This document shows positions 39,601 through 62,729 of a stretch of DNA of 64,000 nt, one piece after another. Within the stretch, counting starts at the first letter, position 1. Every line of letters begins with the position of its first letter. The notes beneath the pieces were generated by a model that was not told the origin of the DNA, searched no databases, and saw only the letters and a program-made list of their open reading frames with translations. The DNA lies in assembly GCA_009746045.1 (NCBI GenBank), contig RPFO01000592.1, positions 1 through 64,000 of the forward strand, in the 5' to 3' direction. Source of the DNA: Mesostigma viride (Eukaryota > Streptophyta > Mesostigmatophyceae > Mesostigmatales > Mesostigmataceae). The translations under genes were made by a program, and so were the position numbers.

Positions 39601-42600
39601 AAAAGCTGGACGCGGATCGGAAATGGCATCGTGATAATTATGCCCGTAAGAAAAGGGAGATGGCCACGGGGAGGACTAAGGATGTGCGTGGCAAGAAGCA
39701 TGCGCGGACGGACGGGAACGATGCTGATGACAGCGACGGAGGATGTGATGAGATGGATGCAACGATGGAGGACGACGATGGTGGTGGCCTCGAGGGTGGT
39801 GATGGGGAGTCCATCGATCCGCTCGAGGGAGGCAGCCCGGGGAGTGATGGGGAGAAATCTGGTGATGATGTGTCACCACCAGTCAAGGAGACGGATCGGC
39901 AGAGAATCACGAGGGTGAGTTTATCTGACACTGCGCTCGCAGCTAACCATGTGCACGTGATGTCATAAGCCAGCTAGTAGACGTATCACGGGTACACACG
40001 CAGGCAGGAAGGCACGTAGGCTGGCAGGCAGGTAAGCCAGTTTGGCAAGCATTTTGGCAAGGGCGATATATCTTTTGTGTCAAGCTAGGCATGCAGGGCT
40101 GCATGGGCAGGAAGGAAGGCACGGTGCAAGGGGCATGGCGTAATCCAACTTTGCGGTGCTTTCCTCTGTGTATATCCCAACTGAGATGACAAATAATTTT
40201 TCTGACGCTGTGTTGGTTTGTGATGTTGTATCTTGAAAAAGGTTACTTCAAGAAGGATGTTGTGGAACGGTGCTGTAGCGCAGGTTATTGCGTGATAGTA
40301 CCATTGATCGAAGTGTTCGGTGTGTTCAAATTGTTGGAATATTTTTAACAGGTGAACGATGAGGTCAAAAAGTTCGGAACGACGCTTGCCGAGGTGCGGC
40401 GATTGTCGCGCTGTATGGACACGGGCGATTACACAGGATTTGAGGTGCGGCCGTTCAAGTTGCAGCCGCTGACCAATGACCCGAATGCTGCACATCCGTA
40501 CTCGCTAGACGAACACCGTGAGCTAAGCAAGTGCCCCAAGTGCCATGCGCCCATGTTCAAGGAGGAGCACCCCAAGCAAAGTCGTTGCTGTTCCAAGGGC
40601 AAGGTCAAGGTGTTGCAGCCCAACCTTAACCTCATCATCGAGAAGCGCAGGAGGCGCGAGCGACTGCTGGCGGCGCCGAACCCGGACGAGCGCGCCATTG
40701 CGCAAAATAACCTGAGTGAGCAGGAGGAGATGTTGTGGCAGATCCACTGCAACCCGACAAACGTGGCCCTGTGGATCAGGTACAGTGTTGGAATGATGGT
40801 GGGAACCAAGCATGCTTGTGTGTTGTACTCGATGTCAGTGGTGCAGAAGTTATGCTGAAATTTTCTTTACCACTCTTAGTAATGGTGCGACAGCTATGGC
40901 AAAATTTTCTTCTCCGCCCTTATGGCACGGGAGCTATGCTAAAATTTTCTTCACCGCCCTTACTTATGGCGCGGGAGCTATGTTAAATTTTTCTTCACTG
41001 CAGTTAAGGGGAGGGAGTTATGACAACATTTTTTTTCCCACCCTTGCTTCTACTGCGGGAGCTAATGCCAAAATTTTCTTCGCTACCCTTATGGCGCGTG
41101 AGCTATGCCAAAATTTTCCGCACTGCCCTTGTTGCACGTGAGCTATGCCAAAATGTTCTGCACCACCCTTATGGCGCGGAAGCTATGCCAAAATTTTCTG
41201 CAGCACCCTTGTGGCGCGTGAGCTATGCCAAAACTTTCTTCACTGCCCTTGTGGCGCGGGAGCTATGCTATAATTTTCTGCACCACCCTTGTGGCGCGGA
41301 AGCTATGCCAAAATTTTCTGCACCGTGCTTATCTTGCGGGAGCTATGCTAACATTTTCTGCACCACCCTTGTGGCTGGGAAGCTATGATGAAATGTTGTG
41401 TATCACCCCTATGGTGCTATGACAACATTTTTTTTCCCACCCTTACTTCTACTGCGGGAGCTAATGCCAAAATTTTCTTCGCTACCCTTATGGCGCGTGA
41501 GCTATGCCAAAATTTTCCGCACTGCCCTTGTTGCACGTGAGCTATGCCAAAATTTTCTGCAGCACCCTTGTGGCGCGTGAGCTATGCCAAAATTTTCTGC
41601 ACTGCCCTTGTGGCGCGGGAGCTATGCCAAAATTTTCTGCACCCCCCTTATGGCGCGCGAGCTATGCCAAAACTTTCTTCACTGCCCTTGTGGCGCGGGA
41701 GCTATGCCAAAATTTTCTGCACCACCCTTATGGCGTGGGAGCTATGCCAAAATTTTCTGCACCACCCTTGTGGCGCGGGAGCTATGCCAAAACTTTCTTC
41801 ACTGCCCTTGTGGCGCGGGAGCTATGCCAAAACTTTCTTCTCCGCCCTTGTTGCACGTGAGCAATGCCAAAACTTTCTTCACTGCCCTTGTGGCGCGGGA
41901 GCTAGCCTAAAATTTTGTGCACCACCCTTGGGGCGCGTGAGCAATGCCAAAATTTTCTGTACCTATGGAGCTATTTGCCATAGCTCCCAAATTTTCTGCA
42001 CCGCCGTTATTGCGCGGAAGCTATGCCAAAATTTTCTGCACGACCCTTGTGGCGCGTGAGCTATGGCAAAATTTTCTTCGCTACCCTTATGGCGCGTGAG
42101 CTATGCCAAAATTTTCCGCACTGCCCTTGTTGCACGTGAGCTATGCCAAAATGTTCTGCACCACCCTTATGGCGCGGAAGCTATGCCAAAATTTTCTGCA
42201 GCACCCTTGTGGCGCGTGAGCTATGCCAAAACTTTCTTCACTGCCCTTGTGGCGCGGGAGCTATGCTATAATACGTGAGTATTCCTTTGCCACTCTTCGG
42301 AAGCGCAAGCTGTGCTTGGATTTTTACCTTACTTCTACTGCGGGAGCTAATGCCAAAATTTTCTTCGCTACCCTTATGGCGCGTGAGCTATGCCAAAATT
42401 TTCCGCACTGCCCTTGTTGCACGTGAGCTATGCCAAAATTTTCTGCAGCACCCTTGTGGCGCGTGAGCTATGCCAAAATTTTCTGCACTGCCCTTGTGGC
42501 GCGGGAGCTATGCCAAAATTTTCTGCACCCCCCTTATAGCGCGCGAGCTATGCCAAAACTTTCTTCACTGCCCTTGTGGTGCGGGAGCTATGCCAAAATT

Positions 42601-45600: not shown

Positions 45601-48600
45601 CTTTGCGTGTGCTTTGACGCATCGAGTGCCTGACATTGTGTGTGTGCTGGTGTATGCACGCGGATACCTTTGTTGCTGTTGTGCCTTGGCAGGAACAAGG
45701 TGAAGGTCAAAGACCCCAACCTACGGAGGTTGTTGGACCTCCTGGAGAAGTACCTGCTCACGTACAACCCCCTGCTGCAGCAGTTTGCTCGGCAGGCGAC
45801 CGAGGTGTTGGCGGAGCGGCAAGCGGTTGTAGAGGTGGCGGGCGAGTTCTCGCCGGAGGTGCACGCGCCAGAGATCTTCTTGATGCCGTGGTGAGTGGGC
45901 TACGCTGTGTTGTATGCATTGAACACGCGCGATATTGGGAATTATTGTGTACCTTTGTCCCACGTTACGGCAGTGTGCTGCATACACTCTTCGGATAAGC
46001 CGTGTTTTAGATAGATTGTTGCCTTGGATTGTCGATTCCACTAGTCATCGGTTGACCTTTGTGGCACGAGTTTTGCGGGTGCGGGTGGGGGGGATGGCGT
46101 CTGCGTGGACGCATGCTCGCGTGCAGCGGACAAAGGAGCGCGCAGCCGGGCCACTTTCGCGTCGACATGGTCGAGCGCGGGCCGGAGGGCCAGCGCATCA
46201 CCAAGGAGCTACCGCTGGGGAGCAAGGATTACATGGCGCTGGCTTTCCCGGTCATCCATTCCGAGGGCAACGGGGGCTGGTCGTACAGGTACGATGGGAA
46301 TGGCAAGCGCAAGCAGGAGGTCAAGCTGCAGCAGGAGCTCAAGTGCCGGATGTTCTCCGAGTGGCGTCTCAAGTACAAGGGCGGGTTGGGGCAGGTGTTT
46401 CCGCTGCACGGCTGCTCCATGAAAGAGGACCAGACGATCACATTCTTGCGAGCAAAGCAGCGCGAGAAGAACCAGCTGCGGATCGCGTCGTGGGCGGAGC
46501 TGAGCGACAACCTCCAGATATTGGACGACTTGAAGAAGATCGGGGTGTACAGCGAGAAGGACTGGAAAAAGTTCACCAAGGCGAACGTGAAGGACCTGCC
46601 GGAGGAGCTGCGTTCGGGGCTGACCATGGAGTTGCCGTCTGGCTCTGGGATGGCCAACCGCTTCGTGCTGCACAACATCCAGGACAACATCGCCGCCATC
46701 GCCGAGGCTGGCGGCCCGTCGGTCTTTGCCACGTTCACGTGCAACCCGATGTGGCCGGAGATCCAGGACAACCTGCCGCCGAGGACCGGCCTAGATGCAG
46801 GAAAACCCCCTAACGTGTACCTGCACCCCGAGTTTGCCAACCGGGCGTTCCACATCCGGCTGGCCGCGTTCGTCAAGGCCATCCAGGACGGCGTGCTGGG
46901 TGCCAAGCCGTTGTACTTAATCTATGTGATTGAGTACCAGACGCGCGGGCTCCCGCACGCCCATGTCATCTTCCGCCTGCCTCAGCCCTTTCACCCCACC
47001 ATCGCCAACGGGCGCATCGACGAGCTCGCGTGGGCGGAGCTGCCTCCCGAGGACATCGCCGGCGGGCGGCTGCGCGAGCTCGTCTTGCAGCACATGGTGC
47101 ACAACCACACCATGGGCGGCAAGTGCATGAAGGACCGGACTCGCGCTGTTCCCATGCCCCCGCGCAAGTCGCTGCGGGCGGCGGACGTCGCGGCGGCGCG
47201 CGACACGTTCGACCTGGAGTCGGCGTCCTCATCCTCGGAAGACGAGCCGGCCAACCCGTGGCGGCCGAGGACCTACACTTGCGCCAAGCGCTTCCCCGAG
47301 TCGTTCGCCAAGCGCACGTTCGAGGATGTGCGGGGGTTCATACACCCGCGAAGGCGGCACACGTGCAAGCTCAACCAGTGGATTGTCCCTTATAATCCCT
47401 GGGCAACGCTGAGGTTCGATGCCCACATCAACTTTGTGGTCACCTCGCACACGCACGTCGTCTTCTACCTCAACAAGTACATAAATAAGGGGCAGGAGTA
47501 CGCGGAGATTAAGCTGGGCGAGTGCGACGAGGCCGCCGAGTACTTGCGGGGGCGGCGGGTGAGTGGCTCGCGTCGTTCATCTGGGTCCAAGTGCTTGTGA
47601 TGGTGTGCTGAGAGGAGGGAATGATAAACCGGGAACGGTGCTAGTTGGTTTGATTTTTTTTTGCACTTTATGCTCTTGAGGAGATGTTCCAAAAGGTGTT
47701 CATAGTTATTTGGAGGCCACGGCTTTGTGTGCGTGTGGGTGCGCGTGTTGTGTGTCGGCAGATAAGCGGGACGCAGGCGGACTGGGTCTGCCGCGGGTTC
47801 CACGAGCGGGCGATGCGGCCCGGCTGCGAGATGCTGCCCATTCACCTGCCCGGGCAGCACAAGATCACGTACAAGGAGGGCTGCAAGTGGTCGCTGGAGA
47901 ACGCAGTGGAGCAGAAACAGGACACGCCGCTGACAATGTACTTTGATCGGCCGGGGGACGAGGACGTGCCCGGGATGAACGCGCTCAAGTACTCTGAGTT
48001 CCACAAGAAGTATGTCATCCGCAAGTTCCTTGGCAACAAGAAGACCCACACCGAGACCGTGAGTGCGCTGTGTTCTTGCACGCCGCTGTCGCATTTTGTT
48101 GATTGCTTCTCGACTCGTTGTCTTGGTGTGCGTATTAGGTGGGTTTCTAACAGCCTTGGTGTTTTAACAACCTGGTTTTGCCGTTGTGCTCCGTGTGGTT
48201 TGTCGGCCGTGCAGCTGAAAAGGACGGCTCCCGCGCGCGCGCTGAGGGACGTGAACAATGAGGTGAGCCATCGTCGTTTCATCGCCGCCGTCGTTGTTTT
48301 CCTTTTTTTTGTGCGGTGCCAAAAACCTTTTTTTTTTGCCCCCCCGACACACGGATGGCAGCCCCCCCCCACACCCACGCACGCATGCCAGCCCCACCCC
48401 ACATGCACGCATGCATGCCAGGCACCCCCCACACCCACGCATGCATGCCAGCCCCTCCCACACCCACGCCCGCATGCCAGCTACCCCACAAACCCACGCA
48501 TGCATGCCAGCGACCCCCCACATGCATGCATGCATGCCAGCCACCCCACGCACGCATGCCAGCCCATCACAAACCCACTTATGCATGCCAGCCATCCTCC

Positions 48601-51600
48601 ACACCCACGTACGCATGCCAGCCACCCCACACACCCACGCACGCATGGCAGCCACCCCATGAACCCACGCACGCGTGCCAGCCACCCCCTAACCCCACGC
48701 ATGCATGGCAGCCCCCCACCACACCCACGCATGCATGCCACCCCCCCCCACACCCACGCACGCATGCGAGCCCCCCCCCACACCCACACACGCATGCGAG
48801 CCCCCCCCCACACCCACGCACACATGACACTCCCCCCCCATGAAGTCATAGTGGGCACTACGGAGTCATGCGCTTGAGAGGGTGTACGTCGAGTTGTTTG
48901 TCCTAACGTGTGGCGGTGGTTGTGGTCCCGTGACACTGCTGCTCGCAGGTCATCGTTTGCAAGGGCCACACGGCGCGATGGTGGCTCCTGCCGCGCACCC
49001 AGCGGGTGTTCACGCGAATGTACGACCCCGACCTGCGCAACCCCGAGCTCTTCTACTTGCGCGTGCTGCTGGAGAAGCGCGCGGCGCACTCGTTCGAGGA
49101 CCTGTGCACCGTGGACGGCGATGTGCTCAGCAACGAGATGGCGTGCCGCCAGCTGGGCCTGCTCGAGGACAACGACGCCGCGGTGGAGTGCATGCGCATC
49201 GCCGCGCGCCGGTTCGAGACGCCGTACGCGATGCGGCGGCTGTTCGTCATCCTCGTTTTGCAAAGGCTCAGCACGATTCAGGCGCTGTGGCGGTTCAAGG
49301 AGGAGATGATGAAGGACCACCTGTTCTTCTCGTACGAGGACGTCCACGGCGGGGTGGGTAAGAACGCCAAGCATCCCATCACGGTGGAGGACCGCGAGGC
49401 GGCGGTCGCGCGCACCCTCACCTACCTTGACAGGCGGCTGTCGGCCTACGGCTTCGACGTGTGGGAGCTGGAGCCGTCGCTGCGGAGGCGGCGCGAGAGG
49501 GGCGAGGATGTGTGCCGGCGCAAGCGCCAACACGACCCGGATGCCACACCGGAGGTCCCGGCGCCCGACCTGACCCGGTTCTCGTTCGAGCAACGTCAGG
49601 CTTACCAAACCCTGGTCAATGCGATCGAGGGCGCGGGCCCCCATCGTCGGCTGTTTGTGGATGGCCCCGCGGGAACGGGCAAGACCATGGTCATCAACGC
49701 GGCGATGCAGCAAGCCACGCGCGACGGATTCAAGGTGGTGCCCATGGCGTTCACGGGCGTCGCGTCGCTGCAGATGTGGGGCGGAACCACGTCGCACCAT
49801 GCGTGCGGCTTCCCGCTCGTGCTGGACCTCGAGTACGGGTGCCCCGTGACGCGCGGCTCTGCCAGGGGGCGCGCGCTGGTGGAGGCGCACGCGCTGGTCG
49901 TGGACGAGGTCGGCATGATGAATGTGGAGCTGATCCAGCTCTTGCATGAGCTACTCGTGAACCTGACCTTTGTGCAGGAACCGTTTGGCGGCAAGGTGCT
50001 CATTTTCGCGGGCGACTTCCGCCAGGTGGCACCCGTCGTCAAGGGCGCGAGCGAGTTGGCCACCTCTGACGCCAGCGTGGTACGATGTCCGCAGTGGGTG
50101 GGCGTGCACCGGCTGCCGCTCGAGTTCAACTACCGCGCGCGCGAGGACCCGGAGTATGCGCGGTTCGTCGCCAACGTCGGCATGGACAATGTCGCCTACG
50201 AGGCGGTCCTGGATAACCGTACTCACAAGGAGGTCCCGATGATCCCCCTCGCCATGGTCAAGCCGGTCAACGACTTGGACGAGCTGATCGCGCACACGTT
50301 CCCCGACGTGAACAGCCCGAACGCGTGCATGGGCTCCTCGATCGTCGCGCCGACGAACGCCGCGTGCGACGAAATCAACGAGGCCGTGCTGGCCAAGTTG
50401 AACAACGAGGAGCGCACCGCTTTCAGCAACGACAGCGTGGCCAAGTCGGGGGAGAAGGCGTCCATCAAGACTCTGAACAGCGCGCGCCAGGTTGGCGTGC
50501 CTGACCACGAGTTCAAGTGGAAGGTGGGCGCTGTCGCCATGATAACCCGCAATCTGTCCCACAAGGACGGATTGCAGAACGGGACGCGGGTGGCGCTGGT
50601 GGACGAGCAGAACGGCGTGTTCATCGTGAGCACGCCGGACGGCGAGCTCCACCCGCTGTCGCGCATCGCCTTCACCATCGAAGGCGACAAGTTCAAGATA
50701 CTACGAATGGCGTATCCGTTGAAGGTGCGTGCGCTTGGGGGTGTGTGCCCTGCATTCCTATCTGATTATGGTTTGTTAAATTCAGGCGGGCGCTGTAACG
50801 GCAAGCATGGAAAGCCATGCACTATATATAATGCATGCGGGAGTAATACGACACAAGGACCTAATTGCATGCCAGCCACCCCACGAACCCAGGCACGCAT
50901 GCCAGCCCCCCGCTAAACCCATGCATGCATGGCACTCCCCCCCCACACCCACGAATGCATGGCAGCCCGCCCCGCCCCACATGCATGCATGGCAGCTCCC
51001 CCCCACGCCCACGGACGCATGCCAGCCCCCACCACCACGCACGCATGCCAGCCCCTCCCACACCCACACACGGATGCCTGCCCCCCCCCCAAACCCACGC
51101 ACGCATGCCAGCCCTCCCATAAATCCACACACGCACACCAGCCCCCCCCCACATGCACGCACGCGTGCCAGCCACCCCCTAGCCCCACGCATGCATGGCA
51201 ACCCCCCACCTACCAACGCACGTATGCCAGCCCCCCCACAAACTCACGCATGCATGCCAGCCACCCCCCACATGCACGCAGGCATGCCAGCCACCCCACA
51301 AACCCACCCACGCATGCCAGCCACCCCCACACCCACTCATGCATTCCAGCCACCCTACAAACCCACTTCTGCATGCCAGCCACCACCCACACCCATACAC
51401 GCATGCCAGCCACCACCCACACCCACACACGCATGCCAGCCCTCCCATAAATCCACACACGCATGCCAGCCCCCCCCACACGCACGCATGCATGCCAGCC
51501 ACCCCACACACCCACGCACGCATGGTAGCCACCCCACGAACCCATGCACGCGTGCCAGGCACCCCCTAACCCCACGCATGCATGGCAACCCCCACCTACC

Positions 51601-54600
51601 CACACACGTATGCCAGCCCCCCCACAAACTCATGCATGCATGCCAGCCACCCCCCACATGCACGCATGCATGCCAGCCACCCCACAAACCCACCCACGCA
51701 TGCCAGCCACCCCCACATGCACGCATGCATTCCAGCCACCCCACAAACCCACACACGCATGCCAGCCACCCCACGAACCCAAGCACGCATGCCAGCCCCC
51801 CACTAAACCCACACATGCATGGCACTCCCCCTTCACACCCACGAATGCATGGCAGCCCACCCCGCCCCACATGCATGCATGGCAGCTCCCCCCCACACCC
51901 ACGCACGCATGCCAGCCACCCCCACACCCACGCACGCATGCCAGCCCTCCCACAAACCCACTTATGCATGTCAGCCACCCCCCACACCCACGTACGAATG
52001 CCAGCCACCCCACACACCCACGCACGCATGCCAGCGCCCCCCTAAACCCACACATGCATGGCAGCTCCCCACCGCACCCACGAATGCATGGCAGCCCCCC
52101 CCCACCAGCCACCCCCCTAAACCCACGCATGCATGCCAGCCCCCCTTCACACTCAGGCACGCATGCCATCCCGGCCCGCCCCACATGCATGCATAGCAGC
52201 TCCCCCCCACGCCCACGCATTTATGCCAGCCACCCCACAAATCCACGTATGCATGCCAGCCACCCCACAAACCAACCCACGCATACCAGCCACCGCCACA
52301 CCCACGCACGCATGCCAGCCCTCCCATAAATCCACACACACACGCATGCCAGCCACGCTACAAACCCACTTCTGCATGCTAGCCACCACCCACACCCACG
52401 CATGCATGCCAGCCACCCCACGAACCCAAGCACGCATGCCAGCGCCCCCTAAACCCACACATGCATGGCAGCTCCCCACCACACCCACAAATGCATGCCA
52501 GCCCCCCTTCACACCATTCCCATACACAAATAATGTGCACACACACTCATCACCATTACCATGAACTCGCCAATGAGCAGCTGATAGTTCATCGATAGGA
52601 ACGATGGAGCCATTTCAAGATCTTGGCTGAACACTCCATTTCCCGCCTCCGTCGCCTGCTTTGTTTCGTGCGTTGTTCGGTGTGCGTGCAGCTCGCCTAC
52701 GCGGTAACCATCAACAAGTGCCAGGGGCAGACGTTGGAACGCGTCGGCTTGTGGCTGCTGCGCGACGTGTTCGCGCACGGGCAGCTGTACACGGCGCTCA
52801 CGCGCGTGGGCGCCAAGGAGCGCATCCGGGGGCTCTTTGCCTACGAGTTCGACGGCGTCGGCTACAGCAGGAACGTCGTCAACTGGACAATCCTGCGGGG
52901 CGCGGGCATCGACCTGCGGGACCGGGTGGAGGACCCCGTCAAGGCGCGCATTCGCAACCGCGACCGCGTGCGGCGCCGGACGCAAGCTTCGGACGACTGG
53001 GAGCTGTTGGACCCGATGGACGGAGACCCTTTGGACAACAGCTATGACAACCCCAACGACGAGCAGGTGTGGGAGCTCGGGGACGACGAGGAGAACTCGT
53101 ACGCGGATCGGCACTGGGGCGAAGACGAGATGGAGAGGCGGTGGAGGCAGGTGGTGGACCAGCCTTTGTGGGCGGACTACGTGCTGGGGAGCGACGACGA
53201 CGACCCGTATCGCGACATCGTGCGGGTGGACGGCTTGTCGTCCGACGACGATGACCGCGACGCCGCGATTCGCATGTACGATGGCGACGACGATGTGGAC
53301 TACGACGGCTTGCCATATATCGGCGACTCTGACGCTACGGTGTGTGACGTCGCTTCATGTTGCGCTGTGGACCGATCTTGGTTTCGACGTCGGGTCCGTA
53401 TTCTGTGTTGACACGCCTATGCACGTGCGTGGGCATGTGTGTGTGCGTTCGCTGTCATGCTCATGACGTGCACGTGTTGGCACATGTCCACGCGGTTCGC
53501 TGTTGATGCGCAGGACATGGACGAGGATGCTATCCCGACGTACGACGCCGACTATGACTCGGCATCGTGTGGGGACGACCGCTCGTCGGGCCAGGTACGC
53601 GTTCATGGCTCGGTTCCCGTTCGCGCGTGGTTGGCGGGATGGCGGCTGTGTCCGATGGCTCGTGTTCTGACGAGTGGTCGCGTGTTGTGTCCCCCTCGGT
53701 CGCAGGATGACTACGGCGACGATGATAGGCTGATCGACCCGCACGCCGCCGCCGACGACTTTCCCTATTTCTACAGCGTAAGTCCCCGCTTTTTTTATCG
53801 TGTGCGTTAGTCCTTCCGTCGTTAGTTGGGAACGTGTTTGTACCCTTTTTTTTTGGCGAGCCATCCGATGTTAACCAGCAGGTCTAGGGGTCGATCTTCG
53901 ATTGTTCCGCTGACTTTGCTTGCTCGGCTGTTGCGTGATGATGATATCGCAGGACGGGGATAGGTCATCCGAATCCTACATCGACGAGTTTGGGAACCAC
54001 GGGTGCGAGAAGGCCAAGGGCTTTGTGAGGTCGGGCCCCGACTTTGGGCAAGCGACGTTTGACTACAACGTGGCTCAGGAATTCACCAAGGAAGATCTGG
54101 TTGCGGAGGCGGTGAGTGCTCGCCCTTTGCAAAGGTGCGACGGGTTGCATTGCGAACCGATGCCGTTGTGCCCTGCAGGCCGTTTAATTCGATCGCTCAT
54201 CCCTAGTTGTTGCTTTGCTCGTGGCGTTTGCTCCCTCTTCCGCAGCGCGAGGCGGTGTTTTCTTCAGATGAGGTCATCGAGGGGGATGACGAGGGAGACA
54301 ACGAGGGTGGTGTGGAAGGCGGGAGCGACAAGGCTGCGGGCGCGGGGGATGGTGATGCGTCTCCTCGCGACGCGAGAGACCTCGGCAGAGTGGGTGAGGG
54401 ACGTGGGGTGGAGGGGGGAAGTGCCACATCGGTCGACGCTGGCGGAATCGATGCGGCGGACGGTGATAGGAGCGTGGCAGGGGCTGCGGGTGTCGCTGAA
54501 CCGGGTGAGACTGTCCCGTTGCAGGGGGAAATGGGTGTGTCGCACGAGCAGGGTGCTGCGGTGGATGGAGCCCGGGATGTGACGTCAACGGTCGATGATG

Positions 54601-57600
54601 GCGTGGACGCGCACGAGCCGGCCGTGGCTGCTGCGACGAATGAACCAAGACATACGGACGTGGACTGTGCGGCGACCTGCGCGCGCGAGGGGACGGCGGC
54701 GGGTAATGTACCGGAACTCGATGGTATCCTTGCGCAGGTGCGCGGGGTGCTCGCCGCGTCACGAGCCCTGCTGGTGCGACTGCGGCATGTCGCGGTCGGC
54801 GCGTCGACCCGCCACGATCCCGTGGAGACGCTGTACGCCAAGCTGTGCGCGTCCCGCGCGCGCGGCGAACTCGGCGGGCAAGACCGCCTGCGCTTCGAGG
54901 GGGGGAGGGACGGTCTGGCCGGATTCGGGCCGACCGCGCTTGCGTACGCCGAGTTCGCGGTGGTGCTGCTCCTTTGGTCTCGCGTTCACGTCGGTGCGTC
55001 GCTGCCGATCGTGAGCGACGAGTGTGAGCAGCTGCGCGCCGTGTTGGAACGGGACGGCGACGTCGCGGATGTGGTTCGACGGCTGTTTGCGCACGCGAAC
55101 TCGTGCGCGTTGGTGGAGCGCGCGCCGTGCTGCGGCTATGAGGAGTGCCTGGCTACCGCGTCCGAGAGCGAGCTGGACTTGGTCGACCTCGGCGTCGGCC
55201 AGGGGATGCTGGCTGAACAAATGGCGGCGCTGCTGAGGCGCGGACCGGCGCCAGGGGCGTGCGTGGGTTGCCGTGAGGCCGTCCCTCACTGTGTTCGCTA
55301 CTCGCGCGTCGGTCTCCCGGCGAGTGTCGTGTTCCACGTGCGGGGCGGGGCGGACGTGCGCGAGTGCGGGGGAGGGCATCTGCCCGCGCGCTTCGATGCC
55401 AAAGTCCTCGACGTGACGCGTGGAGAAGAGGTCGCCGCGGTCGCGCGTCTGCGCGGCTTTGTCGAGGCCAGGGGTGTTAACCGACTCGTTTTCTGCCGCG
55501 CCGTCGACGCCGAGTCCGGTCAGTTCCAAGTCCTCGACGCGATCACGGGCGACGTCTCGCTCGAGACGCTGCGGCTGGATGCTTTGGAGCGCCCCGTGCT
55601 GGCGTGCGTCTATGACGTCAAGGCGCCTGCGGACACGGGGTCGACGTGTGAACACGAGGCGCCTGCGGCGGTCAGCCCTCCCCGTGCGTCAGCTGAAGGG
55701 ACGCGACGGAAGAGTGCCACGAAGTGGCGCCCACTGCGTGCGGAGCGGCGCGAGCGCCTGCCCGACCCTGCGGCTGGTCATTGCTCGGCGCACGGGTGCG
55801 GCGCTTGCGCTCAGTTTGACGCGCTCATGGCGTCGCACGGCCACATCAGGCTGCGCGCCGACCGCACGCGCACGTTTTCGTGGTACGAGAACAGCTGCCA
55901 CCTGGACGCGGTCCTCGAGTTCGTGTGGCAGGTGCTGCTGCTGCTGCAGACGCCGGCGAGGTCGGGTTTGCAATTCTTGATGTGCCGCGTGCCGGGCGAA
56001 CCGCACGATTGGCGCTGCGATCTCGGGTTAGCGCTGCTGCGCTGCGTGCTGGCGGCCGCGGAAGGGCAAGGCCGAGAAATGGACGCGCGGCGCGACGCGG
56101 TGCTGCGCGTGCTCGACAAGCACTTGCCCGCGCGAGTGGCCGCGGACCCGGACGACGCGTTCGACAACATGCGCACGCTCATGGAGCACGTGGCGGCGGG
56201 CGGCCCGCGGTGCAGCGAGCGCTCGTGCCAGCCTCAGGTCAGGTCGGACGGCGGCCCGCTCGAGCTGCCGCTCTTGGTCATCGACTGTGATGAACGATGG
56301 GACATTGCGACACGCCTCGCGTCGGTGTGCCGACAGCACGCGCCTGACGTTCCCGTGCCGTGCGCTTTGTGCCACCAAAGGGAGTGCGTCTCGGGGCGGC
56401 ACTGTGACGAGGTGCCGCGCGTGCTGCTCTTCGGTCGCTTGAACCAGCTGCCGCAGAGCGCGTATCGCGGGGCCGGCCTGCCGGAGACGATGGAGCTGAC
56501 TCTCTCGATCGGGCCGACGCGGCGGCAGGTTCGCGTCACCGCCCGGCTGTTCGCCGTGGTCGAGCTAATGGGCGGCCATTGCGTGCTGCTGCGGCGTCCG
56601 CAGGCGGGCGGGAGGTGGGAGGTGGTGGACGGCATTGCCAACGTGGAGGGTGTGTCCCACCGCGACCGCGTCGACATGGCGCGGCTCGCGAGGGTCACGG
56701 ACGCGTGTTGTTATGTTGTGGAACAGTGTGCCGCCGAGCGAAATGTCGGCGAGCTGCATGGCGACGATGGGCATGAGGCGCACGCGAGCGCGCAGGCGGC
56801 TGCGTGCCCGCCGGATGCCGAGTCTGCCGTCGTGCGCGAGTGCTTTGAGAACTTTATGCAGCTTCAGGACGCGTGCGAGGGGCTCGCGCTGCTACCTCGA
56901 GCAGATGTGGCATCCAGGGGACCGTTGTCGGCCCCGTTCGAGCTGTTGTACACGCAGCTGTGCGAATGGCAGGCGCAGAGCGGCGCGCGGGACTTGCGTT
57001 GTCTTACGTTCGAGACGGTCGGGCAGGTGGGCGGAGTGGGCGACGCGGGCGCGCGGGTCGCGTTGGCGCTGCTGACGGCCGTGTGGCAGCGCGCGCAGGG
57101 CTCGCAGCGGGACGTGGACGCGGCAACGACGATCTGGAGCGTTCGGTGGCGAGGCTCGAGCGGCGGGGCGGACAAGAGCCGCTGCAGTTTCACTTGGGAC
57201 TGATGTTGTCCCATTTGGAGACCCCGGGGTTGGTGGAGCGTGGCCCTTGGTGCTGCAAGTGCGACGAGGAGGTCGGCGCGATCGCCGAAAATCCGGTTCC
57301 CTTGGTCGAGGTGTCGTGCTTGGGCCGGGCACGCTCGCCTACTTCCTGGCGAGGGAGATGAAGAAGGCCACCATTTATTGCAAGTGCTCGGCCTGCGGTT
57401 TTCGCATGTCCACGATGTTCCGAGAGCTGCGCGGCGGCTTGCCCGCGTTTGTTGTGTTCTACGTCAATAAGCGTGAGACGGTGAGGGAGGGGTGCGAGGT
57501 CGCCTCGGACCGCTTCGCAGCCCAGGTGGCGGTGGACGATGGCTCGGTCGTCGATGTGGACATGCGGCTGCGCGGCTTTATCGAGCGCTCTCCTGGCGGC

Positions 57601-60186
57601 GCGACGACGTTCTGGCGCCGCGGGGATGAGGCGAACGACGTTTGGTGGGGGCACGACGGTGCGAGGCGGACGCGGCACAAGTGTGAGCAGGGATCGGCGG
57701 GCGAGCCGGGTGGGGAGATGGCGTGCGTGTACGAGGTGGCGCCCGCCGCTGAGGACCACTGTGACGCGGTCGCAGGTGAACCCTCGTCCGTGGGAGCCGA
57801 GCAGGGGGCCGTGCCGGGAGTGCCGGTCGACGCCAGTGGGTCGCACAAGCGCGTCCCGGTCCTTGCTGAGGTACGAGGGGGGACCGTGCCGGGAGGGGAG
57901 GCATGTCCCATCGATTTGTCGGACGGTTTCGGCGACGACGGGGCGGGCCCTGCAGCCGTTCGCGCGCAGGAGGCGGACACCCCCTTTGTGCGGCAGGCCT
58001 CGTTGGACTTTCTGCGACTGCGGGAAAAGTGCGAGGGCCTCGTGCTACAGCGGCGCAACGACGTGATGTTCAAAGGGCCGCATGGCGCGCTCTTGGAACT
58101 GTTCTACGTGTTGCTGTGCGAATGGCAGGCGCAGCGGGGCGTGCAACCGTTACGGCGGCTGACATTTGCTAGCAGGAATGCGCGCGCTTCCTCCTGCGTT
58201 GGCGCCGAAGCGGCCGCGCGGTTTTCGTTGGCCTTGCTGACGTGCGTGTGGCAGCGTGCGCGGGGCGCGCAGGGGGACGTGGACAGGGCGATGGCCGACT
58301 TGGAGCGCGCGGTGGCGGAATCGCGTCCCGCGGCGTCCCTCGAGTCCGTGTTATGCCGCTTGCTCTCACACGTGGACATGCCGCGCTTGTCCGAGCGCGT
58401 CGCGTGCTGCCTGCTTTGCGGGAAGCCACACGGTGCCGCCCCGCTCGAGGAGAGTACGGTGGATGTGGTTAAGGTGCCAGCGACGTTCGGCCACCTGTCC
58501 ACACTTTTGGCGATGGCGATGAAGCAGAGCCTCTTCGAGAGCGCGTGTCCCAGTTGCAACTCCGCAGCGGCGGGGCGCAAGCGCGTGCTACGCGGGGGGA
58601 CGCCGGCGTGGCTGCTCTTCCACGCGGACGAGGGCGGGTGGGTGGGCGGCGCGCCGCCGGACCGTTTCCCCGTTATGGTCTCCATCGACGGCGAACAGGA
58701 CACCGACGTCCCCGCCAACGCTCGCCTGCGCGCGTTTGTGCGCCGCGAGCCCGGCGACCGCTTGGCGGTCTGGCGGCGCGACGCTGACACCCCGGACACA
58801 TGGTGGGTCACCGACGGCTCAGGCCCGGCGCGCCGGCGGCGCGATCAGGAACTGTCCAACGCACCGGCCGCAGAGATGGTCTTCATGTACGAGGTGGCGC
58901 CCGCGGGCGGTGCCGTCCACGCCGCGACCGAGGCACGACGCCACGCGATTCCCACGAGCGATGTTTCGCGAGGATCCGTGGAGGGACGCACGGTGCCTGA
59001 CGTGACGTCGCATCCCGCGCCCACGACGCCTGCGCGGTCGGCGGTCCGGGGTCCCAGCACGCCTGCCCGGGTGGGGGTGCAGGACAAACGCGCGCAAGTG
59101 AGGAAACGCGCTGGGACGTCCGCGGCAGAGGCCGTGGTTGTGGGGGACGAGGAGGAGCATGAAGAGGAGGAGGAGTTGCTGCCGCAGCACCGCGCGTTCG
59201 AGTTCACGCCACGGCCGAGGCCATCGAACGCCACCACATCCTTCTGTCTCGCGTTCCTGCGCTTGATCGAGCAGTACGGCCACAGGATGCTGCCCGTGCT
59301 CCTCATGAACCTGCCCGTGTGGAATGCGAACAGCTGCTGGGTGGACGCCATCCTGATGCTGCTGGTGCACGCCATGATATGGGGGCAGCGGCCGGGGGAG
59401 TCCGGTCTGCTCAGGCTGCAGTGCAATCACAACGACGGCAGACACGGTCCACGCTGCGAGGACGGCCTCGCGTTGCTGGAGTTTGTTCTGGCGTTTGCGT
59501 TCGGCACGATGCAGGAGGCGGCCGACAAGCGTAACAAGGTGATGCGGCTGCTAGGTGCGAGCCAAGGTACGCTTTACGGGGCGCAGGGCCACGGGAACAT
59601 ATGCCTCACGAACGTCATGGGGCACCTCAAGGACGCGTATCTCCGTCAGGGCGACTGGGCGTGCAAGCGACCGTTCCCCGTGGACGGCGTGTTGCAGCGA
59701 CCCATAGGTGCCGGCATCGCGCCCGACGGTATGGACTTTGAGGACCGCATCGTGCAGGTATGCCGCGAGTACGCAGGGGAGCTGTGGCAACCATGTCGTT
59801 GCCTTTCGCCGACGTGCGTACCTTGGAGGTACTTTGACATGGTTCCGAGGGTCCTGGTGGTCGTTGGCTTCTTAACTGGTGTCGAGTCGCGAGACTACGC
59901 CGGCCGCGGGCCGCCCATGAGGTTCGGCATGGCCATCCGCGTGGGTCGCGAGTGCGAGGAGGTTCGCGTGACCGCGGAGCTGTGCGGCATCGTGGAGAGG
60001 CAACCCCAGCACTTCGCGTACCTGCGACCCATGGACCTGGACCAGGGGCGATGGGAGGAGGTGGACCCCTATGGCGCGTTGACACGACATATCAACACGG
60101 CATACCCGCGCCCCGGGCGCGTCGACCTGGCCGAGCTTGCGCACAGGACGCTCGCGTGCCTGTACCGCGTGACGCCGGTTCCCTGA
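35040..60186 (+). CDS. Giant Helitron replicase-helicase with C-terminal USP-like tract
   Basis: Encodes the Rep/helicase protein of a Helitron rolling-circle transposon, which would nick, unwind and transfer a single strand in the nucleus. Proposed exons: 35,040-35,077; 35,193-35,249; 35,310-35,478; 35,691-36,140; 36,272-36,334; 36,545-36,619; 36,777-37,208; 37,388-37,543; 37,712-38,209; 38,362-38,544; 38,716-38,796; 38,923-39,087; 39,241-39,312; 39,537-39,914; 40,352-40,779; 45,321-45,548; 45,693-45,890; 46,127-47,558; 47,762-48,058; 48,215-48,262; 48,949-50,724; 52,692-53,339; 53,514-53,594; 53,706-53,777; 53,953-54,111; 54,246-60,186. This totals about 4,700 codons; Helitron proteins are usually about 1,400-3,000. 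The ATG at 35,040 has good context (gccATGG) but the first three exons are the weakest part. Exons from 37,388 to 54,111 are well phased. Two frameshifts lie in the last exon. The last exon could instead be a separate gene. Confidence 0.75.
36777..37208 (+). other. Ser/Ala/Pro-rich linker exon
   Basis: A 144-codon phase-0 exon of low complexity, rich in Ser, Ala, Pro and Thr, probably disordered. CAG acceptor and GTAAGC donor. It separates the basic N-terminus from the repeated modules. Confidence 0.6.
37388..39312 (+). other. Three tandem two-exon helical modules
   Basis: Six phase-0 exons form three modules. Exon A (52, 61 and 55 codons) has an aromatic-T-A-x-[DE]-F start in modules 1 and 2 (FKTASDF, FKTAADF; AILAYKRAAKAF in module 3). 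An amphipathic segment follows (RISYLIKALDEE, KIARLQSLLQEL, QIEYLQELVGEV), then a charged end. Exon B (166, 27 and 24 codons) starts with a short helix such as VKALQDMV or GKTLLDMI. In module 1, exon B is extended by Ala/Gly-rich repeats. I recognise no known family. The same exons occur in the fragment at 20.1-21.8 kb and the relic at 31.8 kb. Confidence 0.6.
39537..39914 (+). other. Charged linker exon with acidic run
   Basis: A 126-codon phase-0 exon. A basic helical part (KLDADRKWHRDNYARKKRE) is followed by a long Asp/Glu/Gly-rich stretch, probably disordered. Its donor is GTGAGT. Confidence 0.65.
40352..40779 (+). other. Helitron N-terminal zinc-finger exon
   Basis: Encodes CPKCHAPMFKEEHP followed by SRCCSKGKV. 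This is the CxxCxA...E...CCxxGKV pattern that precedes the Rep domain in many eukaryotic Helitrons and probably binds DNA. The exon ends NVALWI in phase 2. The next exon completes R and reads MINQFF, matching the I-R-x-x-N region after the finger in Helitrons. This match across the 4.5-kb intron supports the splice. Confidence 0.85.
40845..45245 (+). repeat. 40-bp satellite filling a Helitron intron
   Basis: About 110 tandem copies (estimated from length, not counted) of a 40-bp unit built on GCTATGCCAAAATTTTCTGC plus CACCCTTGTGGCGCGGGA. Larger blocks of variant order recur, for example around 41,020-41,400, 42,060-42,270 and 43,920-44,080. It occupies nearly all of the intron 40,780-45,320. 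With a 40-bp period, translation repeats every 40 residues in all frames, giving long spurious ORFs of up to 206 codons. Confidence 0.95.
45321..45890 (+). other. Helitron pre-Rep exons
   Basis: Two exons (45,321-45,548 and 45,693-45,890) joined by a phase-2 intron. The second contains LLEKYLLTYNPLLQQF, the conserved N-P-h segment before the Rep core in Helitrons. An AG at 45,319-45,320 or one at 45,328-45,329 could be the acceptor; both keep the frame. Confidence 0.7.
46127..47558 (+). other. HUH/Y2 Rep endonuclease exon (Helitron_like_N)
   Basis: A single 1,432-bp exon carries the rolling-circle nuclease. Visible are the upstream conserved VFATFTCNPMWPEI block, the metal-binding HUH motif in EYQTRGLPHAHVIF (His codons 46,956-46,958 and 46,962-46,964), and the two-tyrosine motif YLNKYINKG (Tyr codons 47,466-47,468 and 47,478-47,480). 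All catalytic residues expected for nicking and transfer are present, so this domain looks competent. Confidence 0.92.
47762..48262 (+). other. Post-Rep connector exons
   Basis: Two phase-0 exons (99 and 16 codons). The first contains ADWVCRGFHERAMRPGCEML and PIHLPGQHKITY, matching the A-x-W-R...P...L-x-x-H-L-P segment that follows the tyrosine motif in Helitrons. The 48-bp exon links it to the helicase exon. Confidence 0.75.
48340..48872 (+). repeat. 30-bp minisatellite plus array tail inside an intron
   Basis: Lies in intron 48,263-48,948. It begins GACACACGGATGGCAGCC, matching the array at 10,142, and ends with GAAGTCATAGTGGGCAC and GGAGTCATG, the first ~40 bp of the array's AT-rich tail (11,074 onward). 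So it is a cut-out of array sequence and not just the same motif. Confidence 0.9.
48949..50724 (+). other. PIF1-type helicase, motifs I-IV
   Basis: A 592-codon exon. The first third is the conserved Helitron region ELFYLRVLLEKRAAHSFEDL...CRQLGLLEDN. The helicase follows: Walker A GPAGTGKT (49,663-49,686), Walker B VVDEVGMM, motif III AGDFRQVAPV and motif IV LEFNYRAR. It would unwind DNA 5' to 3' during strand displacement. The exon ends just before motif V, which is on the next exon. Confidence 0.92.
50868..52515 (+). repeat. 30-bp minisatellite in the helicase intron
   Basis: About 1.65 kb of the 30-bp CATGCCAGCC family, more diverged than in the array, filling most of the intron 50,725-52,691. 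C-rich strand on the coding strand, as at 48.3-48.9 kb. Confidence 0.92.
52692..53339 (+). other. PIF1 helicase motifs V-VI and acidic tail
   Basis: A 216-codon exon starting LAYAVTINKCQGQTLERV (motif V) and continuing HGQLYTALTRVGAKERI (motif VI), which completes the SF1B helicase. After about 70 residues it becomes strongly acidic (GSDDDDPYRD, SSDDDDRDA, DGDDDVDYDG). Confidence 0.9.
53514..54111 (+). other. Acidic micro-exons linking helicase to USP tract
   Basis: Three phase-0 exons of 27, 24 and 53 codons (53,514-53,594; 53,706-53,777; 53,953-54,111), rich in Asp, Glu and Tyr. All have CAG acceptors and GTACGC, GTAAGT and GTGAGT donors. They keep the frame into the last exon at 54,246 and so support one continuous gene. 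Confidence 0.65.
54246..60186 (+). other. C-terminal exon with five USP-like units
   Basis: A 5.9-kb last exon of about 1,980 codons. After an acidic linker, five units of ~300 residues recur at roughly 54.72-55.64, 55.84-56.73, 56.83-57.74, 57.99-58.91 and 59.23-60.18 kb. Units 2 and 5 have a Cys box (ENSCHLDAVLEF, Cys codon 55,896-55,898; NANSCWVDAILML, Cys codon 59,335-59,337), a His box (GGHCVLLRR at 56,577; PQHFAYLRP at 60,010) and a following W-E-x-V-D. Cys boxes resemble USP family members such as CYLD. Units 1, 3 and 4 keep CxxC pairs and the palm-like strand before an R-F or D-R-F but lack both Cys and His. A deubiquitinase-like role is inferred. Single-base frameshifts sit near 57,125 and 57,323. 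Confidence 0.6.
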
Positions 60187-60634
60187 GCCTTTGGTGAGTG
60201 GATTTTGTGAGATGTCCGGTTCGTAATCCTGTCAACTGCGAATTTGCAACTATAATGCTTGATTAATGTACGATTGCTTTTGTTCTCGCATCGGACGATG
60301 CCGTGTTCATATGTGATTAGTGTTTAGTACGTGTGATCCACGATGGAGGTATGGCCACCGACACCGCGCTTTCTTCTTACTCCATTCCAATGCGCTGCTT
60401 GGTATGTCGCGTTCCTTGCGCAGGACAGTGGGGGAGGCATCTTCGGGGACGAGGATTACAAATTGTGGATGCCACGTGATAGGGTCTTGCTGGAGCACGT
60501 AATAGCTTGCTATTACTTCCCATATTTTTATAATGATAATACAACTCAGAAACCCCTGTCTCCGTGTTAATGGAACTCCTGTTCGTGATTGCACGAGCAT
60601 TCAAAACTGTATCAATTCAATTTGCTTATTCCCC
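60187..60634 (+). other. Region 3' of the Helitron gene
   Basis: AT-rich spacer after the stop codon. A 75-codon frame starts at ATG 60,343 and encodes EDYKLWMPRDRVLLEH after a CAG at about 60,423. It could be a small gene or an exon of a longer transcript, but nothing confirms it. I find no clear Helitron 3' end (hairpin then CTRR). Confidence 0.3.
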
Positions 60635-62570
60635 CACACTGGCCCATCATGTAGGCAAAGTGGGGGCGTGCAGGTCCATCATTTGCGGGGGTGGCTGTCG
60701 CCAAGGGGTGCCATGCTCCCTTGCGCGCGCTACCACGTGCCCGCCGTTAGGGGTGGGTCATTGTCCTAAAATATGCAAATGGGATTGGATTGGCCTGAAA
60801 GTTGGAGGGTACCTTCCCCTACACAATTTGATGATGTGGGCAAAGTGGGGGCGTGCAGGTCCATCGTTTGGGGGGGTCGCCATGGCCAGGGGGGGTCATG
60901 GTCCCTTGTGCGCGCTAGCACGTGCCCGCCGTTGGGCATTGATGATGGTCCTAAAATATGCAAATGGACTTGGATTGGCCTGAAACTTGGAGGGAGCCTT
61001 CCCCTTAACTATTTGATGATGTGGGCAAAGTGGGGTCATGCAGGTCCATCATTTGGGGGGGTGGCTGTTGCCAGGGGGTGGCATGCTCCCTCGCGCGCGC
61101 TAGCACGTGCCCACCGTTAGGGGTGGATCATGGTCCTAAAATATGCAAATGGCCTTGGATTGGCCTGAAACTTGGAGGGAGCCTTCCCCTTAACTATTTG
61201 ATGATGTGGGCAAAGTGGGGGCGTGCAGGTCCATCATTTGGGGGAGTCGCCATGGCCAGGGGGGGTCATGGTCCCTCGCGCGCGCTAGCACGTGCCTGCC
61301 ATTGGGCGTGGATGATGGTCCTAAAATATGCAAATGGGCTTGGATTGGCCTGAAACTTGGAGGGAGCCTTTCCCCACACTGGCCCATCATGTGGGCAAAG
61401 TGGGGTCATGCAGGTCCATCATTGGGGGGGGTGCCTGTTGCCAGGGGGTGCCATCGTCTCTCGTGCGCGCTAGCACATGCCCACCGTTAGCCGTGGATCA
61501 TGGTCCTAAAATATGCAAATGAGCTTGGATTGGCCTGAAACTTGGAGGGAACCTTCCCCCACACTTGCCCATCATGTGGGCAAAGTGGGGGCGTGCAGGT
61601 CCATCATTTAGGGAGGTGGCTGTTGCCAGGGGGTGGCATGGTCCCTCGCGCGCGCTAGCACGTGCCTGCCGTTGGGGGTGGGTCATGGTCCTAAAATATG
61701 CAAATGGGCTTGGATTGGCCTCAAACTTAGAGGGAGCATTCCCCCGCACTGGCCCATCATGTGGGCAAAGTGAGGGCGTGCAGGTCTATCATTTGGGGGG
61801 GTGGCTGTTACCAGGGGGTGCCATGGTCCCTCGCGCGCGCTAGCACGTGCCCACCGTTAGGGGTGGTTCATGGTCCTAAAATATGCAAATGGGCTTGGAT
61901 TGGCCTGAAACTTGGAGGGAGCCTTCCCCCACAATATATCATCATGTGGGCAAAGTGGGGGCGTGCAGGTCCATCATTTGGGGGGATGGCCATGGCCAGG
62001 GGGTGCCATGGTCCCTCGTGCGCACTAGCACGTGCCCGCCATTGGGCGTGGGTGATGGTCCTAAAATATGCAAATGGGCTTGGATTGGCCTGATACTTGG
62101 AGGGAGCCTTCCCCCTCAATACCCCATCATGTGGGAAAAGTGGGGTCGTGCAGGTCCATCATTTCTGAGGGTAGCTGTTGCCAGGGGGTGCCATGGTCCC
62201 TCTTGTGGGCCACCACGTGCCCACCGTTAGGGGTGGCTCATGGTCCTAACATATACAAATGAGATTGGATTGGCCTGAAACTTGGAGGGAGCCTTACCCC
62301 ACACTATATCATGATGTGGGCAAAGTGGGGGTGTGCAGGTCCATCATTTGGGGGGGTCACCATGGCCAGGGGGTGGCATGCTCCCTCGCGCGCGCTAGCA
62401 CGTGCCCACCGTTGGTGGTGGGTCATGGTCCTAAAATATGCAAATGGGCTTGGATTGGCCTGAAACTTGGAGGGAGCCTTCCCCCACAATATATCATCAT
62501 GTGGGAAAAGTGGGGTCGTGCAGGTCATAAAATATAATATGGTCCTAAAATATGCATAATTTGTTGGGTG
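60635..62570 (-). repeat. 185-bp satellite, about ten copies, inverted
   Basis: Ten or so ~185-bp units with GTGGGCAAAGTGGGG near 60,837, 61,021, 61,206, 61,391, 61,577, 61,763, 61,947, 62,131, 62,316 and 62,500. It is the reverse complement of the satellite at 20,580-21,555. Tandem 80-115 codon frames across it come from the repeat. Confidence 0.92.
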
Positions 62571-62729
62571 GACAATGCCAAGGGGTGCCATTGTCCCTTT
62601 CAAGAGCCTATCACCACATTAGACTATCATGTCATTATAGGATTTTCACATTATTACAAACGCATTTTCAAATTCACATCGAAGGGAATTCTTATTTATA
62701 GTTAAGTTAAAGCCTCTGTTTAGTTAGCT

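Follow-up and report, generated by a model that had tools for sequence, protein, structure and literature searches.

Helitron locus of Mesostigma viride

We analysed a window of 64,000 nucleotides from the streptophyte Mesostigma viride (assembly GCA_009746045.1, contig RPFO01000592.1, positions 1 to 64,000 of the forward strand; contig C1673 in our numbering of the 440-Mb assembly that was searched). The window carries a Helitron, a rolling-circle transposon, whose replication and helicase exons are followed by a tract of five related units of approximately 285–337 residues each. On balance we favour the reading that this tract is the C-terminal part of the Helitron protein, or a second Helitron product, and that its units are divergent cysteine isopeptidases of the ubiquitin-specific protease (USP) superfamily, some competent in appearance with regard to Cys, His and Asp and some dead, which serve the element. 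The following features were recognized:

40349..40858, plus strand: probable N-terminal Helitron exon, Cys-rich (CPKCHAPM..CC), open frame
46056..47600, plus strand: Helitron Rep (HUH) exon frame; Pfam Helitron_like_N, E 2.5e-23
48934..50800, plus strand: Helitron PIF1-type helicase exon frame; Pfam PIF1, E 1.5e-36
52599..53339, plus strand: helicase C-terminal exon with an acidic tail at its end; predicted donor at 53340
53514..53594, plus strand: predicted acidic linker exon 1, phase 0; GT/CAG borders, in frame
53706..53777, plus strand: predicted acidic linker exon 2, phase 0; GT/CAG borders, weak match to L036 and L038 (E 0.012)
53953..54111, plus strand: predicted linker exon 3, phase 0; GT/CAG borders, weak match to L036 and L038 (E 0.015–0.020)
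54246..54689, plus strand: beginning of the tract exon, with an acidic stretch of low complexity preceding unit 1; CAG acceptor at 54245, frame 54207–57203
54690..55661, plus strand: unit 1, degenerate, no Cys and no His; degenerate-unit alignment, 37% identity to the first degenerate unit of L031 (L031_deg1)
55749..56741, plus strand: unit 2, catalytic-type; Cys codon 55896–55898, His 56577–56579, Asp 56628–56630; catalytic-type alignment, AlphaFold model
56820..57732, plus strand: unit 3, degenerate, frame-broken; pieces match the second degenerate unit of L014 (L014_deg2)
57976..58926, plus strand: degenerate unit 4, reading GP at the Cys position; 63% identity to L031_deg2, degenerate-unit alignment
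59173..60186, plus strand: unit 5, of catalytic type and reaching the stop codon; Cys codon 59335–59337, His 60010–60012, Asp 60064–60066; catalytic-type alignment, AlphaFold model
60629..62526, plus strand: 185-bp tandem array, 10.3 copies, 3' of the gene; repeat search

Rep and PIF1 helicase, both identified by Pfam and encoded in this order on the same strand, form the domain pair of a Helitron. The Rep translation contains GLPHAHVIF and YLNKYINKG, which we take to be the HxH and the two-Tyr motif, respectively. The helicase shares approximately 31% identity with its top public matches, and many of the named ones are from plants (7993 candidates scored, of which 158 proteins passed E 1e-20; 120 listed). 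On its C-terminal exon, UvrD_C_2 was matched weakly and below the cut-off (E 0.0029), and a Pfam scan of seven window frames detected no AP endonuclease. The Cys-rich frame at 40349..40858 had no significant Pfam match; it shares 89–97% protein identity with stretches located 5' of the Rep exon on contigs C3 and C1324, and is presumably the N-terminal Helitron exon.

Three small exons are predicted to join the helicase C-terminal exon to the tract exon, leaving four short introns, all of phase 0 and with GT/CAG borders (53340–53513, 53595–53705, 53778–53952, and 54112–54245). The tract start at 54246, as given in the preliminary description of this locus, agrees with the predicted CAG acceptor. 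The helicase tail is 46% identical in L036 and L038 (C1 and C36), at the corresponding position. A fusion of helicase and tract through these introns makes a plausible predicted gene model.

Five units of two kinds

The preliminary description had recognized five tandem units, two of them active-looking and three without the Cys, and their number, size, and most motifs were borne out. The boxes are NSCHLDA, HCVLLR, and WEVVD in unit 2, and NSCWVDA, HFAYLR, and WEEVD in unit 5 (C55, H280, and D298). Units 1, 3, and 4 retain PAxxxF, a CxxC, and Y-x-V while the catalytic Cys is absent, so that the split between units 2 and 5 and the others stands. Two details required correction. Gly-Pro or something similar had been described at the Cys site of the degenerate units; unit 4 indeed has GP, but unit 1 reads TRHDP. 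The statement that degenerate units lack the His holds for unit 1 of the window but not for the sister lineage, in which the unit-1 type lacks the Cys and retains the His and W-x-x-x-D (2 of 9 degenerate units).

Units 2 and 5 share 32% identity. Local alignments of units 1, 2, 4, and 5, compared with 300 shuffles, gave z values of 52 for units 2 and 5 and 24 for units 1 and 4, which is not chance. Single pairs of a degenerate and a catalytic-type unit scored lower, with z values of 3.0 (units 1 and 2), 10.9 (1 and 5), 3.1 (4 and 2), and 3.8 (4 and 5). Comparison of a profile of 14 catalytic-type units with one of nine degenerate units gave a probability of 98.7% (E 1.8e-16, 287 columns). The degenerate units 1, 3, and 4 are thus homologous to the catalytic-type units 2 and 5. 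The sequences for both alignments were picked from open frames, with frame-broken units (such as the front units of L013, L015, L016, and L017) and further near-identical copies excluded.

In all 14 catalytic-type units the boxes follow the order known from USPs, and the Asp stands 17–18 residues past the His. Cys, His, and Asp are invariant in these 14 units, many of which are only approximately 33% alike; the Cys box itself varies, being NCCxxNA rather than NSCxxDA in the first catalytic-type unit of L014. This invariance bears on the idea that all five units are USP-shaped binding or structural modules, in which Cys, His, and Asp are conserved for structural reasons. It is true that the Cys is absent from three of the five units and that some units of this kind are conserved, but an invariant set of catalytic residues at this level of divergence is not what a dead scaffold usually shows, and we regard the idea as unlikely.

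Five further Cys residues (C164, C197, C208, C210, and C215) are invariant in the catalytic-type alignment; the fingers of USPs carry a four-Cys zinc site. Also invariant, in the N-terminal half of these units, are C84, H91, and C95 (C-x6-H-x3-C), a possible second metal site.

Genomic copies and linkage to Helitrons

At least 61 matches to the downstream frame of the tract were present in the genome, in 30 clusters. In 24 of these, a Helitron helicase was located on the same strand 2.4–11 kb upstream. The linked helicases fall into groups with approximately 100%, 76–82%, 52–53%, and 45–51% identity to that of the window. No linked helicase was seen in six clusters: two on C1106, one each on C1724 and C481 (the latter near the contig end), and two on C723 (one at the contig start). 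All 61 tract matches and 44 of the 58 helicase matches were used. The 14 helicase matches left out (eight at 30%, on C796, C1790, C436, C919, C1524, C1718, and, twice, C1107; one each on C1535, C1106, C335, and C253; and two on C1779) add no cluster with a same-strand upstream helicase under the rule used. That the units belong to a Helitron, as the preliminary description had held, is therefore strongly supported. In L031, the C1448 lineage, four units in the order degenerate–catalytic–degenerate–catalytic are encoded in one open frame of 1709 codons.

Helitrons are known to capture fragments of host genes, and the tract might accordingly be a host gene or pseudogene that was passively captured downstream of Helitrons and is decaying. 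The broken frame of unit 3 would also fit such an origin. It is opposed by the constant order and strand in 24 of 30 clusters despite helicases of 45–100% identity, by open frames of up to 1709 codons, and by purifying selection since the copies split. We consider passive capture very improbable.

Selection was examined as pN/pS, the ratio of nonsynonymous to synonymous change. Between near copies, it was 0.14 and 0.15 for the downstream frame (11 nonsynonymous among 37 changes and 8 among 26, where approximately 75% would be expected; p 1e-8 and 3e-6) and 0.45 and 0.50 for the upstream frame (p 0.03 and 0.09). For single units, 16 pairs were compared, with uncorrected p values; unit 4 versus C1324, which contains a 1-base gap, was omitted. 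The values were 0.09 and 0.14 for unit 5 (p 3e-5 and 0.003), 0.36 and 0.12 for unit 1 (p 0.10 and 0.006), and 0.27 for unit 4 (p 0.05). Unit 2 showed no change between the window and C3, and 0.09 in the other pair (p 0.02). Sister copies gave 0.22 and 0.24 for degenerate units (p 0.004 and 0.007) and 0.05 and 0.35 for catalytic-type units (p 5e-4 and 0.03). Other pairs had non-significant values, namely 0.62 for the first catalytic-type unit (L031 and L009), 0.70 for the second degenerate unit (L014 and L016), and 0.55 for the second catalytic-type unit (L031 and L014). Purifying selection is thus significant in part of the pairs, among both catalytic-type and degenerate units, and not in others.

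Two other groups of Helitrons were observed. On C1435 (2986658–2987725), C1468, and C180, a further lineage with helicases of 47–51% identity has its tract match at a distance of 2.4 kb downstream of the helicase, possibly a simpler layout. C335 carries five helicase matches of 43–56% identity and no tract match on the contig; it may represent a lineage without protease units.

Frame changes in unit 3

The preliminary description had placed the units in the last exon, but this exon is not open throughout. Two frame changes in unit 3, which had not been described, divide the tract into two long frames of different phase, 54207–57203 and 57076–60186 (998 and 1036 codons). Unit 3 is read in frame 0 to approximately 57128, in frame 2 at approximately 57125–57325, and in frame 1 from approximately 57325; the changes fall across approximately 57115–57330. 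Its three pieces share 73, 50, and 34% identity with L014_deg2. An intron was considered as the cause and set aside, since no pair of a GTA or GTG donor with a CAG or TAG acceptor, the types scanned, joins the frames.

Positions 57001–57450 are identical in the window and its two closest genomic copies, on C3 and C1324. Since the breaks are common to three copies, an assembly error in a single copy is unlikely. These 450 bases show no difference in copies that diverge by approximately 1% elsewhere in the tract; together with the identity of unit 2 between the window and C3, this makes conversion possible. The frame downstream of the broken unit is better conserved than the upstream one, which suggests that its translation continues by some route or ceased not long ago.

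Mixed ancestry of the units

The units of the window have their closest relatives in different lineages. For unit 2, identity is 76% with the front catalytic unit of L014, from the C1 lineage, and 35% with its L031 counterpart. In unit 3, the first piece matches the L014 degenerate unit at 73% identity, while the last piece, at 34%, is no nearer to it than to others. Unit 4 is 63% identical to its counterpart in L031 and 46% to that in L014. Unit 5 shares 95% identity with units at C723 and C1106, and 36–37% with the last units of L014 and L031. The simplest account of this pattern would be a front of C1 type (units 1–3) to which a unit 4 resembling that of L031 and a unit 5 of the C723 kind were joined. 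After such a joining of front and back, one of the degenerate units would be superfluous, namely the broken unit 3.

Similar mosaics occur elsewhere in the genome. In L005 (C723:67638–71660), a front unit of the L031/C1448 type (95%) is followed by a last unit of the unit-5 type (95% to window unit 5), and L006 (C1106) also carries a last unit of this type. The chimeric tract of L005 suggests that whole units are exchanged among Helitron lineages. The last catalytic units of L014 and L031 are 94% identical, as opposed to approximately 35% for the front units, another sign of unit exchange or conversion.

Assignment to the USP superfamily

The preliminary description had assigned a USP-type fold. 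USPs have the shape of a right hand with thumb, palm, and fingers. In favour of the assignment are the order and spacing of the boxes and the Foldseek lists, which are headed by USPs; significant sequence matches are missing and the models are of low confidence. The AlphaFold models of units 5 and 2, for which the input alignment consisted of the window's own units, had a predicted template modelling score (pTM) of only 0.42. When compared with PDB structures by Foldseek, these low-confidence models gave exclusively USPs as the top 22 matches for unit 5 (best E 0.012) and as the top 14 for unit 2 (best E 0.035). The lists are mixed further down: rank 23 for unit 5 is Alr0975, a glutathione acyl-enzyme, and rank 15 for unit 2 is a designed protein. 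In the VIA list of unit 5, USPL1 (7p99) is second, level with USP7, and non-USP entries stand at ranks 7 and 27; in that of unit 2, they stand at ranks 1–5, 8, 11, 38, and 44. Among the matches listed in the two VIA lists, no entry was titled as a VTD (viral tegument-like deubiquitinase), OTU, or Ulp1 protease.

Two observations weigh against the USP reading. Neither low-confidence model had a PDB match at E <0.001 in Foldseek. The Pfam profile of USPs, PF00443 (UCH), did not match any of the 14 units at E 10 or the long frames at E 1.

The genome contains 32 UCH matches, none of which overlaps the Helitron units. No relative of the tract was found with Pfam and NCBIfam for the long frames, with PHROGs for units 2 and 5, or in PDB by phmmer, including a search with a 33-residue Cys-box piece; a profile search of PDB gave three unspecific matches (best E 0.16). 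In a database of 5.8 billion proteins, there was no match at E 10 for unit 5 alone (2393 candidates) or for the 14-member profile (best 7994 candidates by common words). Five pattern matches were obtained in IMG/VR, with none confirmed. At E ≤10, the only Pfam matches of the 14 units were Herpes_heli_pri (six members, best 0.011), an IcmF-related family, and Clusterin, which were judged to be chance. A profile comparison that set the units against three partial USPs of the host found no match (probability 0.1%), but 99% was reached by two of the 30 controls with shuffled columns, so this comparison is unreliable and carries no weight for the USP reading.

The active site and known isopeptidases

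The boxes of the units, arranged as Cys box, Cys-rich region, strands, His box, and W-x-x-x-D, resemble those of canonical USPs (Pfam UCH, C19), which are also the top Foldseek matches. The usual Cys box of USPs is NTCYMNS, in contrast to NSCxxDA in the units. A further difference lies in the loop preceding the catalytic His. Judged by eye, the units have approximately six residues between the last beta strand and this His (IVERQPQH, VVELMGGH, AVEYRPEH), three to five fewer than the approximately 9–11 residues in three host USPs of this genome.

This short loop points to an active site like that of USPL1 and makes SUMO a serious candidate. USPL1 is described as a SUMO-specific enzyme with the triad C236-H456-D472 and without the two blocking loops that matter for ubiquitin binding (PMC8983731). 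Its spacings of 220 and 16 residues between Cys, His, and Asp are close to the 225–227 and 17–18 of the units, and the short loop before the His, a conserved set of Cys, and very low identity to canonical USPs are further similarities. The active units could therefore be USPL1-like SUMO isopeptidases without a ubiquitin-trapping blocking loop, whose targets on the transposon would be SUMO-modified silencing or repair proteins of the host. The place of USPL1 in the VIA list of unit 5 is consistent with this. On the other side, the units are arranged in tandem within a transposon and have no detectable sequence match to USPL1; PF15499 (Peptidase_C98) did not match any of the 14 members at E 10, and the blocking loop BL1 is not obviously missing. 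Moreover, specificity is not fixed by loop length alone, and the models are poor. We treat this narrower reading as possible but less probable than an assignment to the USP superfamily in general; as the substrate tag, SUMO appears about as plausible as ubiquitin.

Deubiquitinases of another family have been reported from Helitrons, a close precedent that the preliminary description did not mention. Helitron-encoded VTDs, such as those of DrT1 and DrT2 of zebrafish, have been shown to be active, with a preference for K48- and K63-linked di-ubiquitin (Erven et al., 2022, PMC9741609). According to the same paper, VTDs occur in Helitrons of several animal groups, two of them stand in tandem in DrT1, and 121 VTD Helitrons also bear OTU domains; inactive VTD relatives in insects form multi-copy arrays without a recognizable transposon context. 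Tandem cysteine isopeptidase domains in a Helitron protein and inactive copies are thus features that the tract would share with VTDs, and the units might be members of this family. VTDs, however, are described there as having an Asp-x-His triad and an M48 fold, and as being carried by Helentrons with an AP endonuclease. None of the 14 aligned units has an Asp two positions ahead of the invariant His, the residue there being Pro, Gly, or Lys, and their Asp follows 17–18 residues after the His; no herpes tegument family was found among their Pfam matches; and active-looking and Cys-less units are mixed within the element. Membership in the VTD family is thus hardly credible, and the VTD precedent would fit the way in which the units might work rather than their family.

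Helitron-borne OTU domains are papain-like domains of deubiquitinase type on a rolling-circle transposon. Their boxes differ from those of the units, and the OTU profile of Pfam matched neither the long frames nor the 14 units. No description of a USP-type Helitron was found among the titles and abstract starts listed in searches of open-licence papers. Helitrons with VTD and OTU domains being already known, the USP-like tract is a further variant of such elements.

Repeats and boundaries of the element

Minisatellite arrays are located at 40892–45084 (40-bp unit, approximately 104 copies), 48350–48840, and 50867–52515 (30-bp units, approximately 17 and 55 copies). They lie between coding exons of the Helitron and are apparently intronic, so that the gene spans approximately 20 kb. 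Sequence similar to the 185-bp array was also detected 3' of the C1324 and C3 copies. Positions 62724–64000 contain long open frames on both strands, in part built from a 171-bp repeat. Comparison of the window with C3 and C1324 revealed no clean common end with the 5' TC and the 3' CTRR and hairpin of Helitrons. Similarity to C1324 ends at the 185-bp array, while that to C3 continues past the gene on either side; C3 may be a segmental duplicate or the other haplotype of this region.

Proposed role of the units

If the units are USP-type isopeptidases, the Rep–helicase protein would bring one or two active enzymes of its own to the replication site. There, the active units could cut ubiquitin, or a ubiquitin-like tag such as SUMO, from the Rep–helicase protein or from host repair and silencing proteins. 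Removal of the tag would allow the element to evade proteasomal degradation or tag-dependent silencing. The degenerate units would keep the fold and might serve as scaffolds that bind the tag or a partner, as the preliminary description had proposed.

A more specific picture, which we put forward as a speculation with the odds clearly against it, is that of a third isopeptidase class, descended from USPs and lacking, like USPL1, a loop that traps ubiquitin, which Helitrons of this eukaryote recruited into arrays such as pseudo–active–pseudo–active, whole units of which are exchanged among lineages. Such a transposon-borne deSUMOylase would clear host SUMO marks of silencing or repair from the transposing DNA–protein complex, with the degenerate units acting as readers of SUMO or of the target.

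The presence of VTD and OTU domains in Helitrons already hints that rolling-circle transposons gain from the removal of ubiquitin. A third isopeptidase class at the same place would, if true, turn this hint into a convergent rule. What pseudo-deubiquitinases do could be tested in this tract, where dead units stand beside active-looking ones, at least part of them are under selection, and their ancestry is mixed.
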